A stretch of 64,000 nucleotides of DNA from an uncultured Kiloniellaceae bacterium (GCA_947493695.1 CANLSF010000002.1:62001-126000), one strand, 5' to 3'. Numbered from the stretch's first letter, positions 34,830-43,705 are shown. Program-made: numbers and translations. The notes: generated by a model not told the origin, from the sequence alone.

Positions 34830-36083
34830 TCAGTCGGACAACACGGTATTCAGTGTCTTGGACCGGGCCATCAGCGCGGCGCCAAGCGCCAGTATCATCG
34901 CCCCTGCCGCGGCGTAGAAGATCCAAGGCGTTTGGCCCTGATCCAATATCCAGCCAAACAGTAGGGGCGCGATAGCCCCTCCGACATTCATACCTGAGGT
35001 CACAAAACCAAATACCTTCCCAACCGACCCGGCGGGGGCCGCAGAGCGAACCATGATGTCGCGCGACGGGCGAATAGCCCCGTTCATAAGCCCGGCCAGG
35101 GCAATCGACAGAGTAACCGCCATCAGCGGCAGCCATGAGCTGCCGACGAGTACAAGGGCGACGGCGGCAATGCAAAAACCTGCAATAAGCACCAGATCGT
35201 GCCGTTTGGTCCGATCTGCAATCACGCCGCCCAGCAGGACACCCCCGGCACTGCAGGAGAGAAAGACGGTCAACACCAGATTGGCGGAATCCAAGGAAGT
35301 GTCATAAAGATCAACCAACGCCACGACGGTGAAACTGTTCAGGCCGATGGCAGCGACAGATGCCATGATCATGTAACAGAAAAGCAGCAACATAGGTGCT
35401 GTGAACAACAAGCCTATATTGGACGCAGCGCTGGCCTTGTCTTTGCTTTCGTCTTCCCTTTCGCGCGGTTTTTCCTGCTTCGGCGCGGGACTGTCGTCAA
35501 GAACGCGTCCGTAAAGAAGCATTGCGCCAAGCACGAAAAGGCCGCCCAGTCCAACCGCGATGAGCGCAGGACGCCACCCCCAGATTGCGGTCAGCGTGAT
35601 CATGACCGTCGGCGCAATGGCCCAGCCCAGGTGACCGCTGAAGGTGTGCAGGCTGAAGGCCCGCCCCAGAAGCGAGTGCTCGACCCGTGCTGAAAGAATC
35701 GCATAGTCAGCGGGGTGGAACACGCTGTTCCCCGCCCCAAGCAACAGCATCATGGCAAGGAGCGTGTAATAGCTGGACGTCAGGCCGCTCAGGATCACTG
35801 CTGCACTCATGCATAGAAGACCGAGCATGAGTAGCCGGCGCGCGCCAAAGCGGTCGACCAGAAAACCCACCGGCACTTGGATAAGACCGGTCGTTACGCT
35901 CGAAACCGTCAGGAGCAGCCCGAGTGCCGAGTACGACACCCCAAACTCCTTTTGCAAAAGCGGAAACAGAGGCGGCAAGACAATTACATAGAAATGAGCA
36001 AAGAAATGTCCCGAGGAAACCAGCCCAATGACCTTTGTCCTATCCGATAGGCTGCGTTTGCGATCCGCCGTGGCAAGAGTCAT
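34830..36083 (-). CDS. MFS transporter, Fsr-like
   Basis: Major facilitator with 12 predicted helices, 417 residues. SGHFFAHFYVIVLPPLFPLL and GVSYSALGLLL at the N-terminus match the fosmidomycin-resistance-like group; motif A is GFLVDRFGARRLLML. A charged loop rich in Glu and Lys (EKPREREDESKDKA) links the two halves at about residue 205. Substrate is unknown and an efflux role is inferred from the group. Start ATG 36083. The gene stands alone, 66 nt from the convergent creatininase-like gene. Confidence 0.9.
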   Translation of the reverse strand: MTLATADRKRSLSDRTKVIGLVSSGHFFAHFYVIVLPPLFPLLQKEFGVSYSALGLLLTVSSVTTGLIQVPVGFLVDRFGARRLLMLGLLCMSAAVILSGLTSSYYTLLAMMLLLGAGNSVFHPADYAILSARVEHSLLGRAFSLHTFSGHLGWAIAPTVMITLTAIWGWRPALIAVGLGGLFVLGAMLLYGRVLDDSPAPKQEKPREREDESKDKASAASNIGLLFTAPMLLLFCYMIMASVAAIGLNSFTVVALVDLYDTSLDSANLVLTVFLSCSAGGVLLGGVIADRTKRHDLVLIAGFCIAAVALVLVGSSWLPLMAVTLSIALAGLMNGAIRPSRDIMVRSAAPAGSVGKVFGFVTSGMNVGGAIAPLLFGWILDQGQTPWIFYAAAGAMILALGAALMARSKTLNTVLSD

Positions 36084-36748
36084 TTAGCTTCCGCTCTTTC
36101 TGTCATTTTATGAACCCGCAACTGATTTAATTACTGCCATCGAGGTGTCAGACTTGCGCCATTGGTAGGTCGGCACATCAAAGATCAGTAACTTGAAGGG
36201 TGAGCCAATGAACCGACCGGGAGTCTTTTCGGAACAGCAAAAGACAGTAGGGCGGCCCCAAAAGCCATGCCTCTAAACAGTTCGTGTGGCAGAACTGAAA
36301 CTCGCGGGAGCGACATAAGCGATGCAAATCTCGGCTCGGCCATACGAGGCAAAGGATCCCAACTGCGCGCGTCTATGGCAAGCAGGATTGTGTCTTGCGG
36401 ACAACTCAGCGGTCTCTCTCGAAAACGGGCAAATAGATTGCAGGCAAACAACAAAACTGGCAGTTCTCACAAAAATCTATCGATGGTCACTTGACTGGAG
36501 CAAGCTATCAGTCTTTTACTGATCCGAGGTAAACTGAACGGTGTAGTTTAATAGAATTTGATCACGCGTTTGATCGTTTACCCACGACTGTCGATACGGC
36601 ATGTTTGGTTTGCGCAGGAATGCACGGCCATTCTTAAATAAAGCAATCTGGGGCGTGGAGCGCGCCCTGATAGTGTAATAGAGAGTCTCAGTGTTTTCTC
36701 CGACGCCGCGAGGAACGCGCCGACTCTGATGAAGTGAGAGGGGAACCT
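36084..36748. other. Long divergent intergenic region, possible gene remnant
   Basis: 665 nt between the MFS gene and the RND operon. A short plus-strand frame at 36322-36522 begins MQISARPYEAKDPNCARLW, which resembles the start of a GNAT acetyltransferase, but the rest does not and no full domain follows; it may be a decayed copy. The last 60 nt should contain the operon promoter, and GAGAGGGG at 36737-36744 is the ribosome site of the RND gene. Confidence 0.45.
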
Positions 36749-39229
36749 ATGCCAGCGCAACCTGGAGACCAGGGATCGCAATCCGGATCGTCCGGTTCGG
36801 GACACAAGACTGATAGCGCCCCCATGAATACATCAGACGATGCCCTCGCGCTTGCCAGAAGCCGTGCGCGAACCGGTTTTGACCGCAAGGTCATAAATTT
36901 TGCCGGCTGGGTTTTGCGCTGGCGCTGGCCCGTCCTGATATTCTGTATCCTCTTCGCCGTCGCCGCAGCCTCTGGCGCACGCCACCTCAGCTTCACCAGT
37001 GACTACAGGGTCTTTTTCGGGGACGACAATCCGCAGCTTCTCACCTACGAAGCGCTCCAGAAAACCTACACCAAGGATGACAATGTCAGCTTTGTGCTAA
37101 AGCCGGATGATGGGCAGGTCTTTTCCCCCACCTTCCTCACGGCATTGCGTGATCTGACCGATGCCTCCTGGCAGGTTCCCTACAGCACGCGCGTCGACAG
37201 TATCACCAACTTTCAGCACAGCTTTGCCGATGGTGACGATCTGACTGTCCAGGATCTCGTAGGTAAGAACCTGGAGTTGAACCCGGCGGAGATCGCGAAC
37301 ATTCGCGCGGTAGCTTTGGATGAACCACTGCTGCTGCACAGGGTGATATCAAGTGATGCCCAAACAACCAGCGTAAATGTCACAATCACTTTACCGCAAA
37401 AAAGCGAGCATGAAACCGCCGAAGTTATGAGCTTCGTGCGGGACATGGCGGAGAAATTCCGCGCAGAGAACCCAAATGTCACACTGGTCATGACCGGTGT
37501 CGTGCCACTCAATAATGCCTTCTCTGAATCCAGTATCCGCGACATCAAAACACTAATTCCATACATGTGTGGAATTTTACTGCTGGTCATGTTTGCCCTG
37601 CTGCGCTCACTTAACGGGACCATAACGGCACTTGTCTTGATTGGGTTATCAGCGCTCACTGCACTTGGCTTTGCCGGGTACATGGGGATCAAATTGACCC
37701 CACCCTCCGCGGTGGCACCGACCGTGATCCTCACCATTGCCATCGCCGACTCGATTCACCTCCTCGTGACCATGTTTCGTGAAATGCGCAAGGGTGCTTC
37801 AAAGTACGCGGCCATTGTCGAAAGCCTGCGAGTCAACTTTGGTCCCGTATTCCTGACCAGCCTGACGACAGTCATGGGCTTCCTGAGTCTGAACTTCAGC
37901 GATGCGCCTCCCTTCCATGATCTGGGTAATATTTCGTCCATTGGCGTAGCCGCTGCCTGGCTATACTCGATCCTCTTGCTCCCTGCGATGATTGCCGTAC
38001 TTCCGGTGCGCATCAAAGCGGGACAAGGCGGTTCCGAGAAAGCCGCCGGCATGGATATGCTTGCAGAGTTTGTGATCAGCAAGCGGCGCCCTGTGCTTAT
38101 CCTGATGACGTTGATCGTCGTGGGTCTGGGCGCCATGATTCCGCAGATCGAACTCAACGATCAGTTTGTCAGGTATTTCGACGAATCACTCGAATTCCGG
38201 TCCGACACTGATTTCGCGACCGAGCATCTCTCGGGGGTCTACCAGGTCAACTGGTCCCTGCCCGCCGCCGAATCCGGCGGCATCAGTGATCCGGAATACC
38301 TTGCCAAAGCGGAAGCCTTCTCGAACTGGCTGAAGGGGCAGAATGGTGTCGCCCACGTCCAGACGCTAACCGATACCTTTAAGCGCCTAAACATGAATAT
38401 GCATGGCGACGAGCCTGAATGGTATAGGCTGCCCGAGCTTCGCGATCTGGCCGCGCAGTACCTGCTGTTGTTTGAGCTTTCCCTCCCATATGGCCTCGAT
38501 CTCAATAACCAGATCAATGTCGATAAGTCGGCAATGCGCGTCATTGTCACGACAGACGACATCAGCACCAACCAATTGCGTACTCTTGAGCGCGGGGCAA
38601 CGGCATGGTTTGACGCCAACTTCCCGGCAGGAAAAACCGAAGCCAGCAGCCCCTTCGTGATGTTCGCCTATATTTCCCAACGCAACATCGTCGGCATGCT
38701 GACCGGTACCGTAACGGCCTTCATCCTGATTTCCCTGTCACTGATGTTTGCCCTGCGCAACTTCCGGCTCGGTGTTGTCAGCCTTGTCCCGAATCTGGTT
38801 CCTATCATCATGGCATTCGGGATCTGGTCGATTTTTGTTGGCGAGGTCGGGTTGGCATCATCGGTGGTCACGGCCACCAGCCTGGGGATCATCGTGGATG
38901 CGACAGTCCATTTTCTATCCAAGTATCAGCGCGGTCGACGCGACCGGAATGAAGACGCGGCAGGTGCTGTTCGTTATGCATTCTCGACGGTCGGAACAGC
39001 CCTTTGGGTGACCTCGGCCATTCTCATCGCCGGCTTTGCCGTTCTGTCCTTCTCGACCTTCCGGATCAATGAAGACATGGGCATGCTGACGGCGATCGCC
39101 ATTGCTGTCGCCCTGATCGCCGACTTCCTGCTTCTTCCAACGCTGTTGCTCACGGTCGACAAAGGACGCAAGCATAGCGGCGAAGCAAGTATCGGCACCT
39201 CTCAACTCGCCACCAAACCCGCGGAGTAG
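36749..39229 (+). CDS. RND/MMPL-family exporter
   Basis: Inner-membrane permease of 826 residues with two repeats of one helix, a large periplasmic loop and five helices. The intramembrane motifs AIADSIHLLVTMFREM (first half) and GIIVDATVHFLSKYQRG (second half) are those of the RND superfamily branch near HpnN and MmpL, which move lipids, hopanoids or other hydrophobic compounds. The N-terminal 30 residues are Gln/Ser/Gly-rich and cytoplasmic. ATG 36749 is chosen for its GAGAGGGG; a GTG at 36734 is possible. It is followed within 8 nt by the LolA-like gene and is the motor of the three-gene operon. Confidence 0.92.
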   Translation: MPAQPGDQGSQSGSSGSGHKTDSAPMNTSDDALALARSRARTGFDRKVINFAGWVLRWRWPVLIFCILFAVAAASGARHLSFTSDYRVFFGDDNPQLLTYEALQKTYTKDDNVSFVLKPDDGQVFSPTFLTALRDLTDASWQVPYSTRVDSITNFQHSFADGDDLTVQDLVGKNLELNPAEIANIRAVALDEPLLLHRVISSDAQTTSVNVTITLPQKSEHETAEVMSFVRDMAEKFRAENPNVTLVMTGVVPLNNAFSESSIRDIKTLIPYMCGILLLVMFALLRSLNGTITALVLIGLSALTALGFAGYMGIKLTPPSAVAPTVILTIAIADSIHLLVTMFREMRKGASKYAAIVESLRVNFGPVFLTSLTTVMGFLSLNFSDAPPFHDLGNISSIGVAAAWLYSILLLPAMIAVLPVRIKAGQGGSEKAAGMDMLAEFVISKRRPVLILMTLIVVGLGAMIPQIELNDQFVRYFDESLEFRSDTDFATEHLSGVYQVNWSLPAAESGGISDPEYLAKAEAFSNWLKGQNGVAHVQTLTDTFKRLNMNMHGDEPEWYRLPELRDLAAQYLLLFELSLPYGLDLNNQINVDKSAMRVIVTTDDISTNQLRTLERGATAWFDANFPAGKTEASSPFVMFAYISQRNIVGMLTGTVTAFILISLSLMFALRNFRLGVVSLVPNLVPIIMAFGIWSIFVGEVGLASSVVTATSLGIIVDATVHFLSKYQRGRRDRNEDAAGAVRYAFSTVGTALWVTSAILIAGFAVLSFSTFRINEDMGMLTAIAIAVALIADFLLLPTLLLTVDKGRKHSGEASIGTSQLATKPAE

Positions 39230-39237
39230 TCAGACGC

Positions 39238-40074
39238 ATGAATTCCTTCCAATCTCAACATTCGCCCAGACGCTCAGGCGTTACTGCGATCATGCTTGCG
39301 GCCCTCAGTGTTACAGCTGCTTTCGGCGCAGGTTCTGCCCTGGCCGAGACTCCTGAAGAGAAAGGCCTCGCAATCGCTGTTGAAGCTGACAAACGCGACC
39401 TGGGCTGGGTCGACAGCGAATCAGAACTCAAGATGATCCTGACCAATCGCAACGGCGAAACCAGTACGCGGGAACTCCGGATCAAGTCGCTTGAAGTTGA
39501 GGATCCCACTGTTGGGGACAAGAGCCTTACCATCTTTGACCGCCCCAGAGATATCGAAGGCACGGCCTTCCTGTCTCACACTAAGATTACGGAACCGGAT
39601 GATCAGTGGCTTTATCTTCCGGCTCTGAAACGGGTCAAGCGGATCTCCTCCGCAAACAAATCTGGCCCCTTTGTGGGGAGTGAATTTGCCTACGAAGACC
39701 TGATCAGTCAGGAAGTCGCGAAATACACCTACAAATGGCTGCGCGACGAAGCCTGCGGCGATCTTCAGTGCTTCGTTGTCGAGCGCTTCCCGGTATATGA
39801 AAACTCCGGCTACACCAAGCAGGTCGTCTGGATCGATCAGCAGGAATACCGCCCCATGAAGACTGACTTCTACGATCGTAAGGACAGTCTGCTGAAAACA
39901 CTCGTCAACACAGACTACAACCAATATCTGGATCAATACTGGCGCGCGCACACTCTGCAGATGGACAACCATCAGACCGGCAAATCAACAACCCTTACAT
40001 TTGACGGCTATAAGTTTAGAATAGGCAGCAGTGAAGGTGATTTTACCTCGAACAGGCTTAAGCGGGCGCGTTAG
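39238..40074 (+). CDS. Periplasmic LolA-like outer-membrane lipoprotein-sorting family protein
   Basis: 278 residues. After a twin-charged N-terminus a hydrophobic segment and cleavage site (ALA near residue 34) direct export. The mature part follows the LolA-like fold used with MMPL exporters: GETSTRELRIKSLE, TAFLSHTKITEPDDQWLYLPALKRVKRI, GSEFAYEDL and TKQVVWIDQQEYRPMKTDFYD. Such proteins present a hydrophobic half-barrel and could carry the exported lipid through the periplasm. Start 8 nt after the RND gene; the stop overlaps the GTG of the barrel gene by one base. Confidence 0.9.
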   Translation: MNSFQSQHSPRRSGVTAIMLAALSVTAAFGAGSALAETPEEKGLAIAVEADKRDLGWVDSESELKMILTNRNGETSTRELRIKSLEVEDPTVGDKSLTIFDRPRDIEGTAFLSHTKITEPDDQWLYLPALKRVKRISSANKSGPFVGSEFAYEDLISQEVAKYTYKWLRDEACGDLQCFVVERFPVYENSGYTKQVVWIDQQEYRPMKTDFYDRKDSLLKTLVNTDYNQYLDQYWRAHTLQMDNHQTGKSTTLTFDGYKFRIGSSEGDFTSNRLKRAR

Positions 40075-41351
40075 TGATTTTCGGTTCAGACAAGGGACGA
40101 CTCCTTAAGGGCGACGGAAATGTAAGGGCTTCAGCAGTCGCTGGAGCCCTCGCTCTTAGCGCATTCAGCGCAGCCTTAAGCCTGCCGAACGTAGTGCAGG
40201 CCGGCGATTGGGATTTTTCCGGTTCCGTCGCCGGCGAACTGCGGGTCTTTCCAAATGCGCCAGCGTTTGACGAACAGGACGACACCAGGTTCTCACCCTC
40301 AATTGCCGTCGAACCAGAAGTCGTTTACGAGTGGAGCGGCGGTGATGACCGCATTACCTTCGTGCCCTTTGCGCGCCTGGATGCTCACGACGACAATCGC
40401 AGCCACGTCGATCTGCGTGAGTTGAACTGGCTGCATGTTGCCGACGACTGGGACTCGGTGATCGGCGTTGATAAGGTTTTCTGGGGCGTTACCGAATCCC
40501 GTCATCTGGTCGATATCATCAACCAGGACGATGCCGTCGAGGACGTGGATGGTGAAGACAAGCTTGGCCAGCCCATGCTCAATCTAAACCTCTTTCGGGA
40601 CTGGGGAACCCTCAGCGGGTTTGTCCTGCCGGGCTTCCGCGAACGACCATTTCGCTCGAACGATGCCCGTCTACGGGGCGGCTTGCCGGTTGATGACGAT
40701 AATGCGACCTACGAGTCCAACGCCGAAGAGTATCACGTAGACTTCGCAGTTCGCTGGGCTCACACCTTCGATGATCTGGACGTCGGCATCGCCCACTTCC
40801 ACGGCACCAGCCGGGAACCGCGCCTGCTGCCGCGCGTAAACGACGATGGTCGCGTGGTGCTGGTGCCCCGCTATGACCAGATCGATCAGACCAGTCTGGA
40901 TGCACAGCTCACAAAGGACGCGTGGCTCTGGAAACTGGAGGCGATTTCCCGCAGTGGCCAGGGCGACCGGTTCTTCGCAACGGTTGCCGGATTCGAATAC
41001 ACCATCTTTGGCCTCCTAGACAGCAACGCGGATCTGGGACTTCTCGCCGAGTACCTTTATGACGGGCGGGATGAAGACGACGCGCCGGCGGTTCTGACCG
41101 ATGACGATTTTTTCCTGGGCGCACGTGCCACACTCAATGACGAACAGGACACGACTTTCCTGATCGGCGGAATTGTTGACCGGGACACCCAGTCCACTTC
41201 TTTCTCAGTCGAGGCGGAACGACGCATCGGTCAGCACTGGAAAGCAGAGTTGGAGGGACGTTTCTTTGTCAATGTCGACGATGAAGACCTCATCCTGAAC
41301 GGAATCCGCGACGACGATGTGATCACGCTCCGGCTGACCCGGTTCTTTTAG
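40074..41351 (+). CDS. Outer-membrane beta-barrel protein, DUF1302-like
   Basis: 425 residues starting with GTG at 40074, which shares a base with the preceding stop (TAGTG). Signal peptide extends to about residue 43 (LPNVVQA). The mature chain alternates polar and hydrophobic residues and ends RLTRFF, the C-terminal aromatic signal for barrel assembly. The segment LRELNWLHVADDWDSVIGVD-KVFWGVTES resembles DUF1302 barrels, which often accompany RND/MMPL exporters. It is very rich in Asp. The likely role is the outer-membrane end or acceptor of the export path formed with the two preceding genes. Confidence 0.85.
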   Translation: MIFGSDKGRLLKGDGNVRASAVAGALALSAFSAALSLPNVVQAGDWDFSGSVAGELRVFPNAPAFDEQDDTRFSPSIAVEPEVVYEWSGGDDRITFVPFARLDAHDDNRSHVDLRELNWLHVADDWDSVIGVDKVFWGVTESRHLVDIINQDDAVEDVDGEDKLGQPMLNLNLFRDWGTLSGFVLPGFRERPFRSNDARLRGGLPVDDDNATYESNAEEYHVDFAVRWAHTFDDLDVGIAHFHGTSREPRLLPRVNDDGRVVLVPRYDQIDQTSLDAQLTKDAWLWKLEAISRSGQGDRFFATVAGFEYTIFGLLDSNADLGLLAEYLYDGRDEDDAPAVLTDDDFFLGARATLNDEQDTTFLIGGIVDRDTQSTSFSVEAERRIGQHWKAELEGRFFVNVDDEDLILNGIRDDDVITLRLTRFF

Positions 41352-41364
41352 CGCGTATCGCATT

Positions 41365-41388
41365 CCTTCGAACAGGCCTGTTCGAAGG
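41365..41388. repeat. 24-bp perfect palindrome between convergent genes
   Basis: CCTTCGAACAGG (41365-41376) is followed directly by its reverse complement (41377-41388). It lies between the converging barrel and cyclase genes. As RNA it would form a 10-bp stem with a GGCC loop, but no T run follows on either side. Confidence 0.75.
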
Positions 41389-41432
41389 CATATGCTAGAG
41401 AACGCACTTAAGTCCGTGCACGCCAGATGAGA

Positions 41433-43088
41433 TTATTCTCCATCCGGCATGGGCGCAGGTTCTGTGCTCTCCAATGTGAAGATCTCACGGTCGTTCCGAA
41501 CACCGCGCAAGCTATGCCGACCAAGAGAAACGGCTCCCCTGCAGAGGTGACTGGCAATTTCAGCAGAGAAGAGAATCTGTTGATCCAGGTGTTTGCAGAT
41601 GTTGCCGATACGCACTGCTTCATTCGCAGCCGGTCCGATCACTGTAAAGTCGAGACGCTGATCAACCCCGACGTTGCCGTAGGTGACCTTGCCTTTATGG
41701 ATCGAGAGTGCAAAGCGCAGTTCCGCTTCGCCGCGCGCGGTCCGCTCGGCGTTAAGCGTCTCGAGGCGGCGGCTAGAGTCTTTCGCCGCCTCAATAGCCC
41801 GAAAGCAGGCGGCCGCGACCGGCGTGCAGTTCAGACAGCCGGGAACAGGGTTCTCATCGTCGATCGGGAAAATCGCGAGAACAGCGTCACCGATAAACTT
41901 CAGAACCTCGCCGCCCCGTTCCAGCACGGCACTGGCAGTACACTCGAAAAAGCTGTTTAGGACATTCAGGTATTCCGCTCGTGAGAGGTTCTCCGCCATC
42001 TCGGTCGAATCCCGCAGATCGCAAAACCAGATTACCGCATTGATATCTTCTCCATCGCCCCGTTGGACACGGCCGTTCAGGACGCGCTCTCCCGTGTAGG
42101 CGCCGAGGTAGGTGTCCAGCAATGAGCGGGACATCTGGCGGAGCGCATGAACCTCGAAGAGACGGCTGAGCAGCGGCAGGATTTCATAGATATGCCCAAG
42201 GTCCCGCGTGGAAAAGCCGCCGGGTTCGTCTGTGGTCAAGGTCAGGGCATTGGCCTGCCCATTGGAGAACGGCAGCGGCATTGCGACATAGTCGGTCGCG
42301 CCATCCGCCTGAAGGTCACGCAGGATTGGAAAATCGAGAACCGGGTTGTCCCCTTCCAGGCGCCGGCGAATACCGCCAACGCCGTCGAAAATCGGAACCA
42401 GAGGTGAGTTAAGGTAGGCGGAGGACGTCAGAGCCTCGTAAGGCACTTCGGTCTGGTTCGAAGTCTCACTGCCCCGATGCCAGCGATAGGCGTTCCCAAG
42501 CAGTTGCGGATGCAGAGTCCGCACAATCAACGCCAGACGCATCAGCGGCACCTGCTCTTCCACCAGCTTGCGACCCAGGCGCGCCACAAGCTCCGGCGTT
42601 GTCGCCGCCTCCCAGGCTTCGCTCATCAACCAACCCGTGAAGGGATTCCCGCGGGTGTAGACCACGTTTCCCGGTTCGATCGAGACTTCCGCGTCTTCCT
42701 CGTACCAGGAGTCCATCCGGTTCTGATAAAACGCGATGTAACCGTCCAGCTCAGCGACCTCGGGTAAGGGGTCCTCGTAGCTCCAGACCACGTTCTCGGC
42801 GAACTTGTCGCCAACCGTCAGACTCCAATAGGAAGCGTTGCCCTTGAAGGGACAATGGGTGTGATGACTGGTTCGCTCCATGAGGTCCATACGCACATCT
42901 TCGCGCGGCAGATAGTAAACCGGCGCGTAGCGGGTCTCCCGGAGCAGCAGCGCAGATCTGGTATCCGCAACGACTGTACCGTTGAAGACAACCTTGACGC
43001 GCTTGTCGGAAGGCAGGATTTCCAGTTTGTAGTCAGGATTACCCTCGAGCTGCGCCCGCTCGCCTGGAACTGCGATCACTTCACCCAT
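41433..43088 (-). CDS. DUF427-class III adenylate/guanylate cyclase fusion
   Basis: 551 residues, soluble. Residues 1-130 are a DUF427 domain (VVADTRSALLLRET, YYLPREDVRMDL, HCPFKGNASYWSL, ENVVWSYEDPLPEV). A middle part (about 140-330; MRLALIVRTLHPQLLGN) resembles N-terminal regions of rhizobial cyclases. The C-terminal class III catalytic domain looks active: metal Asp in WFCDLRDSTEM and KFIGDAVLAIF, the Lys/Asp pair for adenine (KFIGD, RLDFTVIG) and transition-state Asn and Arg in GPAANEAVRIGN. It probably makes cAMP. GAGGGCAGG precedes the ATG, and a 10-bp inverted repeat lies 25 nt upstream. A second, free-standing DUF427 gene is at 57896-58294. Confidence 0.9.
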   Translation of the reverse strand: MGEVIAVPGERAQLEGNPDYKLEILPSDKRVKVVFNGTVVADTRSALLLRETRYAPVYYLPREDVRMDLMERTSHHTHCPFKGNASYWSLTVGDKFAENVVWSYEDPLPEVAELDGYIAFYQNRMDSWYEEDAEVSIEPGNVVYTRGNPFTGWLMSEAWEAATTPELVARLGRKLVEEQVPLMRLALIVRTLHPQLLGNAYRWHRGSETSNQTEVPYEALTSSAYLNSPLVPIFDGVGGIRRRLEGDNPVLDFPILRDLQADGATDYVAMPLPFSNGQANALTLTTDEPGGFSTRDLGHIYEILPLLSRLFEVHALRQMSRSLLDTYLGAYTGERVLNGRVQRGDGEDINAVIWFCDLRDSTEMAENLSRAEYLNVLNSFFECTASAVLERGGEVLKFIGDAVLAIFPIDDENPVPGCLNCTPVAAACFRAIEAAKDSSRRLETLNAERTARGEAELRFALSIHKGKVTYGNVGVDQRLDFTVIGPAANEAVRIGNICKHLDQQILFSAEIASHLCRGAVSLGRHSLRGVRNDREIFTLESTEPAPMPDGE

Positions 43089-43140: not shown

Positions 43141-43306
43141 CTCCGGAGTTACCATCGAAACATCAGCAGTTTACCACGATTTCCATAAGAATTATTGAAA
43201 CGATCTGCCTCTATAGCGAAGCGATTGAATTGCCGATCACGGAATCAAGCAATTCGTTCGCGAAGATGTGACTTCCCAGCTCTCATGTCAGCCGCAACTA
43301 TCACTT

Positions 43307-43705
43307 ATGTCTGTTCCCGCAAGCATTCTTCTGGTCGAAGACGACCCCGATTTCGCAATGGCGGTTCACAGCATTCTCGTGGATGCCGGGTACGAAATTT
43401 CAGGTGTCGCCCGCAGCTGCACAGACGCTTTGGCCTTGGCAAGCGAGCAGCGACCGGATCTTGCGATTCTCGATTTTAATCTGGAAGACAATATCGATGG
43501 CGTCACCCTGGGTTTTGAACTTGCCGCAAGTGGTATTCCGATCATTTACCTGACCGGCGAAATCACAGTCACTATTCAACGCGCCTACGAAATAGCTTCG
43601 GATTTTCTGGAAAAGCCGGTCCGAAAGGAAGATTTGCTTAGTTCGGTGGAAGGAATTTTCGCAAACGGTGCTGCGAACGCGCGAAACAGCCCGCTCTCAC
43701 CTTAA
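43307..43705 (+). CDS. Stand-alone response-regulator receiver
   Basis: 132 residues holding a single CheY-like receiver and no output domain. ILLVEDDPDFAM has the acidic pocket, LAILDFNLED the phospho-accepting Asp, YLTGE the Thr switch and DFLEKPVRKEDLL the Lys-Pro. Residues after 118 are a short tail. Start ATG 43307 (MSVPASILLVED) is preferred over an upstream in-frame start at 43268. It is divergent from the cyclase gene; no kinase is encoded nearby, so its partner is unknown. Confidence 0.9.
   Translation: MSVPASILLVEDDPDFAMAVHSILVDAGYEISGVARSCTDALALASEQRPDLAILDFNLEDNIDGVTLGFELAASGIPIIYLTGEITVTIQRAYEIASDFLEKPVRKEDLLSSVEGIFANGAANARNSPLSP

Follow-up and report, generated by a model that had tools for sequence, protein, structure and literature searches.

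The nearest studied analogue of the genes described here is the AmeABCD system of Castellaniella defragrans, the deletion of which leaves cells less tolerant of monoterpenes and increases their accumulation of Nile Red, as befits an efflux system (PMC6394551). Our subject is a set of three adjacent genes, hereafter the trio, in a 64,000-nucleotide stretch of DNA from an uncultured Kiloniellaceae bacterium (CANLSF010000002.1:62001-126000; the window), which encode an RND-superfamily transporter, a LolA-like periplasmic carrier and a predicted outer-membrane beta-barrel. The two systems have in common an HAE3-type RND, a LolA-superfamily periplasmic protein and a DUF1302-type outer-membrane protein in one cassette, and the substrates of AmeABCD are hydrophobic, as we propose for the trio. 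However, AmeABCD consists of four genes in the order barrel, carrier, YCF48 and RND, with a DUF1329 carrier and a YCF48/COG4447 protein, whereas the window set numbers three, running RND, carrier and barrel, with a PF17131 carrier, no YCF48 gene and a barrel that lies outside Pfam DUF1302. By analogy the trio would work as Ame does, but it fails Ame's defining composition and falls outside the AmeABCD type.

Other described systems resemble the trio in part. In BstABC, the sterol line of Methylococcus capsulatus (PMC10942540), an MMPL-family RND likewise stands at the head of a three-compartment lipid route; by description, the system is set apart by BstB, a phosphonate-binding-type periplasmic protein (pfam12974), and by BstC, which belongs to another, non-DUF1302 family. 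TOL_3187 and TOL_3188 (PMC6304351) combine MMPL and LolA-like parts with a following porin without known domains, a likeness that is by description only. RND and carrier are fused in TOL_3187, unlike in the window, although the fused layout does occur within the window family, in locus L136.

Mycobacterial MmpL proteins are the closest RND fold by Foldseek, at ~15% identity, but the window set is Gram-negative and its RND is partnered by a LolA-like carrier and a beta-barrel. The hopanoid transporter HpnN resembles the window RND in fold and in its general role as a lipid RND, but its family models score far under their cut-offs on the window protein (NF052374, 55.9 versus 1100 bits; TIGR03480, 102.4 versus 751.85 bits) and no squalene-hopene cyclase (PF13243) was found in the window's genome. 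Aligned with the AlphaFold2 model of the RND by VIA-align, MmpL4/5 score Z 44-45 over ~680 residues and HpnN (5KHN) scores Z 42.3, in a range near Z 42-45 where many RND classes tie, so that we base the assignment to a class on length, Foldseek rank and sequence. The trio is widespread, and we found no characterization of it as a trio in the literature searched; a search on the pairing of RND and LolA-like exporters also returned nothing. The trio bears on a poorly understood question, that of how Gram-negative bacteria move hydrophobic metabolites across the periplasm with no TolC tunnel.

Gene identity, predicted folds and linkage

The trio comprises the following genes:

36749..39229, + strand: RND/MMPL (HAE3-like) inner-membrane transporter, 826 aa (PF03176, 108 bits; AlphaFold2 pTM 0.76; Foldseek; residue conservation)
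39238..40074, + strand: periplasmic LolA-like carrier (PF17131), 278 aa (PF17131, 213 bits; PDB 3BK5, E=5e-91)
40074..41351, + strand: predicted outer-membrane 18-strand beta-barrel, 425 aa, diverged DUF1302 relative (AlphaFold2, VIA-align, hhalign, conservation)

Re-reading the open reading frames gave exactly the spacing put forward in the initial annotation: 8 nt between the RND and carrier genes (39230-39237) and a 1-nt overlap between the carrier stop codon (TAG, 40072-40074) and the barrel start codon (GTG, 40074). Close spacing is kept in relatives, with the 1-nt overlap recurring in L009-L011 and 4-nt overlaps in L014, L018 and L019. The start at 36749 is backed by a GAGAGGG ribosome-binding stretch and an ATG, both kept in three relatives. 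Upstream, an MFS gene (34830-36083, minus strand) points away, leaving 665 bp to the trio alone; downstream, a DUF427/cyclase gene converges on the trio from 41433. Being isolated between a divergent and a convergent neighbor, the trio is a candidate for a single operon.

The three-part anatomy of exporter, LolA-like carrier and barrel that had been read from the sequence is borne out by profile matches and predicted folds. The RND belongs to the RND superfamily (PF03176, 108.4 bits; curated cut-off 20.5); its top NCBIfam match is TIGR00921 (HAE3), yet the score of 158.6 bits is below that subfamily's cut-off of 351.9. Its model, aligned with MmpL4/5, is consistent with two periplasmic domains and with transmembrane Asp residues for proton coupling, and its nearest folds by Foldseek are MmpL4/MmpL5, NPC1-type proteins, HpnN and MmpL3, which lends a lipid-transport fold to the energised inner-membrane exporter of the initial annotation. 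Asp717 in transmembrane helix (TM) 10 and His337 are invariant in 42/42 homologues and His721 is found in 41/42, while the TM4 residue Asp334 is present in 38/42 and replaced in four. The operon contains no membrane-fusion protein or TolC-type gene, and so differs from HAE1 tripartite (AcrAB-TolC type) systems.

The carrier scores 213 bits against PF17131 (LolA_like; cut-off 30) and bears a signal peptide, with no lipoprotein Cys evident. The Vibrio parahaemolyticus protein of 3BK5, a structural-genomics entry, is a clear homologue, and we found no assigned function for this carrier family in the literature. The carrier is distinct from LolA proper: the Pfam scan gave no PF03548 match for it, and a genuine LolA is encoded elsewhere in the genome (PF03548, 102.7 bits).

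The barrel has no match in Pfam (even at E<=10) or NCBIfam, and thus does not reach the gathering score of PF06980 (DUF1302); the divergent homologues that were scanned likewise have no Pfam match. Structure prediction, on which the barrel assignment could have failed, yielded 18 long strands (AlphaFold2 model from 15 sequences; mean pLDDT 78.7, pTM 0.74), and the model aligns with OprD/Occ porins and the alginate exporter AlgE at VIA-align Z 22-24.5. Together with the signal peptide and C-terminal Phe, this predicts an outer-membrane beta-barrel. By hhalign, a broad barrel profile (A5) matches a Prevotella DUF1302 protein over 313 columns, WGV motif included (probability 95.6%, E=1e-8); profile comparison with the same genome's own DUF1302 proteins gave weak scores, and only this broader comparison was convincing. 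That match makes the barrel a DUF1302 relative that has diverged too far for Pfam to pick up, and supports, as a remote homology, the link to MMPL/DUF1302 sets suspected from the outset. The top-conserved stretch, WGVTESRHLVDIINQ...EDKLGQPM, sits in a low-confidence (low pLDDT) loop, and may form a plug or constriction.

The barrel had also been singled out as unusually Asp-rich. Its Asp content is indeed high (14.5% of the mature protein), but the same genome's other DUF1302 barrel reaches 13.7% and related alphaproteobacterial barrels 11-13%, most other members having 6-10%. We therefore regard the richness in Asp as a trait of the lineage, and reject it as a special feature of the system.

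The initial annotation had made its reading depend on the three genes staying together in relatives, and they do. Among 249 evenly drawn Pseudomonadota genomes, the RND was found in 25 (E<=1e-100), and the same 25 hold homologues of carrier and barrel. RND, carrier and barrel are adjacent in that order in 24; in the other (G096), the contig ends within the RND gene, the last residues of which turn up beside the carrier, the set being split by the contig break. In a second sample, 117 of 370 Gammaproteobacteria genomes encode a carrier relative; at the 50 carrier loci that were read, all three genes lie in order in 34, and at least one partner is directly beside the carrier in 48. The trio is also found on Myxococcota and Zixibacteria contigs, and on plasmids. 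RND and carrier are fused into one open reading frame in L012 (1041 aa) and L136 (1069 aa), with the barrel gene next in each. A hydrophobic signal-like segment is retained between the two parts, and such a helix would place the carrier domain on the periplasmic side.

Other arrangements of these genes occur. One further genome in the sample of 249 (G100) has a carrier at 39% identity and no barrel match; there, a PF17131-type carrier (L099; 38-39% identity) adjoins ABC-2 transporter genes that replace the RND, which suggests an exchange of partner. In L137 (G442 C325, 2221-4896), an 891-aa open reading frame has a C-terminal carrier domain (42%), and BLAST shows nothing in it that resembles the query RND. 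On a 24-kb Pseudoalteromonas plasmid (L072, NZ_CP118497.1), RND and carrier genes directly adjoin a gamma-mobile-trio recombination module, and the barrel gene is upstream in the opposite orientation.

TetR association and a putative operator

TetR repressor genes are the immediate upstream neighbors of the RND start at 21 of 30 loci. Four Kiloniellaceae loci, the window included, have no adjacent TetR gene. The upstream region of the trio contains two conserved elements:

36530..36550, unstranded: 21-bp palindromic putative TetR operator, TAAACTGAACGGTGTAGTTTA (conservation, shuffles, genome-wide site search)
36568..36608, + strand: conserved block downstream of the operator, TTGATC-N17-GATACG (near-identical in four Kiloniellaceae, flanks diverged)

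In the upstream-region alignment, the palindrome is in the same place in L009/L010, where it is perfect (TAAACTACACAGTGTAGTTTA), and in L011. Variants with 3-4 mismatches lie between the TetR and RND genes of L075 (at 11334) and L013 (at 4406 and 4452). Shuffles of the window give an expectation of 0.00 for this site by chance, and 36530..36550 is the only site with 0-1 mismatches in the whole genome. The downstream block is a probable promoter region, although a weak match to one; a sigma-70 scan found no strong site. The repressor that we predict to bind the palindrome would have to act in trans. The genome has two candidates, at 35-37% identity, of which the TetR at C8:102760-103344 has the recognition-helix sequence VSKRTVYSYF in common with the L075 repressor. 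No few-mismatch copy of the operator was found near this gene.

Cargo and direction of transport

We consider it probable that the trio is an export line complete in itself, which carries a lipid or a hydrophobic small molecule, is proton-driven and TetR-controlled, and has a soluble carrier in place of a TolC-type tunnel. We infer the class of cargo, the direction of transport and the hand-off steps from the all-or-none inheritance, the fusions, the folds typical of lipid and siderophore RNDs, the lack of a membrane-fusion protein or TolC gene, the TetR association with its operator, the polyketide synthase (PKS)-type clusters described below and the analogy with Ame. In such a line, the RND would draw its cargo from the inner membrane, powered by the proton gradient, and pass it to the soluble LolA-fold protein, which would shield it across the periplasm and bring it to the 18-strand barrel for release into or through the outer membrane. 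Ligand binding by a TetR repressor, here presumably encoded in trans and bound at the 36530-36550 operator, would release expression.

Clues to the cargo come from relatives and from the rest of the genome. The trio lies within PKS/non-ribosomal peptide synthetase (NRPS)-type or fatty-acid-type clusters in four divergent relatives. In G242, it stands at the end of a ~36-kb PKS/NRPS run. In G164 (L096), it comes straight after genes for a PKS, a condensation-domain protein and a sulfotransferase, the PKS being the sole type I PKS of that genome. On a plasmid of Sulfitobacter sp. DSM 110093, the trio is accompanied by condensation proteins, a type I PKS and GalE, and on a Halioglobus pacificus plasmid an AMP ligase, an SDR, a P450 and KAS III lie beside a set with a different RND. 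Mycobacterial mmpL genes also abut PKS genes, and we take the L096 row of PKS, condensation-domain protein, sulfotransferase and RND to resemble the mycobacterial sulfolipid gene set. On the RND tree, the cluster-linked label takes two changes; as only one of these is forced by the starred branches, the linkage may have a single origin. Neighbors in other relatives are variable, and an acyl-CoA dehydrogenase gene is divergent to the trio in three genomes of one genus.

Thus, of the hopanoid or polyketide genes that the initial annotation proposed to seek near related sets, the polyketide genes are there at some divergent relatives (G242, G164 and Sulfitobacter), while hopanoid cargo does not hold up. 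For the window's own genome we reject hopanoids, given the missing squalene-hopene cyclase and the low HpnN-family score, and an in-house type I polyketide, as no type I PKS (PF16197) was found. Both are therefore improbable as the cargo here. The same genome contains two further sets of the same general design. L027 (C1:1073000-1090000) is a second RND-PF17131-DUF1302 set, adjoining a PrsK/PrsR-like sensor kinase and sigma-54 regulator in a neighborhood with glycosyltransferases and a protein that contains a FeeM (N-acyl amino acid synthase) domain. L028 (C4:27000-45000) is of the Ame type with all four genes present (DUF1302-DUF1329-YCF48-RND), and has acyl-CoA dehydrogenase and 4HBT thioesterase genes on its flanks. 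The presence of three such lines in one genome argues for different cargoes.

Several points weigh against the export line. The barrel might be used for uptake. Divergence is greatest among the cluster-linked members, so their class of cargo may not hold for the window trio; Ser replaces the TM4 Asp in L073 and L096, and the RND of L074 is a different one. At 14 of the 50 Gammaproteobacteria loci, carrier and barrel or RND and carrier are kept with no third gene nearby, some of these at contig ends. No TetR gene is adjacent in the window, and the trans candidate is only 37% identical to the L075 repressor. Finally, we found no substrate, binding or transport data for the RND-PF17131-barrel family in the literature.

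An unlikely alternative is that the trio serves endogenous outer-membrane lipid homeostasis, moving phospholipids, fatty acids or acyl-amino acids between the membranes with no dedicated export. Lacking squalene-hopene cyclase and type I PKS, the genome would supply the cargo from ordinary lipid metabolism, if it does not come from outside; the divergent acyl-CoA dehydrogenases and the FeeM-domain gene near L027 are in keeping with this. However, the patchy spread (25/249), the occurrence on plasmids and the TetR control better fit an inducible accessory exporter. Uptake or handling of long-chain hydrocarbons or fatty acids, with the barrel admitting a substrate that carrier and RND process, is distinctly doubtful, since transport by RND proteins is directed outward from the inner membrane. 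It draws on Thalassolituus oleivorans, in which the MMPL-LolA fusion TOL_3187, of the same layout as L136, is up 42-fold on the n-C28 alkane and the porin encoded by the next gene, TOL_3188, is detected on n-C28 only (PMC6304351). Such a response to a hydrophobic growth substrate would be just as much in keeping with efflux or with the export of a biosurfactant, and TOL_3187 is likened to the window family by its described layout, not by sequence.

That the trio exports a siderophore or metallophore is very improbable: no siderophore genes were found among the flanking genes scanned, and the Bacteroidota carrier is just 30% identical. What recalls such a role is that the siderophore exporters MmpL4/MmpL5 are among the RND's best matches in sequence and fold, and that a Prevotella nigrescens plasmid (L171) has a TetR-ABC-ABC-MMPL-carrier-DUF1302 operon; in P. 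gingivalis and P. intermedia, operons with a similar composition by annotation are up 13- to 223-fold under iron limitation (PMC10434189). Least credible of all is the lipoprotein sorting implied by the product name "outer membrane lipoprotein-sorting protein", for despite the LolA/LolB fold, and 3BK5 being the nearest DALI match of a P. gingivalis LolB-like protein (PMC13103446), the genome has its separate LolA, the operon has no LolCDE-type ABC transporter, and the trio is absent from most sampled Pseudomonadota whereas sorting is general.

Extending the export line beyond this locus, we tentatively suggest that the combination of RND, PF17131 carrier and DUF1302-like barrel may be a general Gram-negative line for lipid and polyketide export, a counterpart of mycobacterial MmpL that would use a soluble LolA-fold shuttle rather than a sealed tunnel, and that would either stand alone under TetR gating, as in the window, or be captured by PKS/NRPS clusters. 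Handles on cargo and inducer are offered by the fused proteins, by the copies linked to PKS genes and by the predicted operator.

Downstream features

One further feature lies between the barrel gene and the convergent DUF427/cyclase gene:

41362..41391, unstranded: inverted repeat with 15-nt arms, 93% complementary

This repeat is a possible bidirectional terminator. The convergent gene (41433-43088, minus strand) fuses DUF427 (NTP_transf_9) and a guanylate/adenylate cyclase domain, and is 90-94% identical across three Kiloniellaceae, a conservation above that of the trio. It is followed by a gene for a single-domain response regulator (43268-43705).

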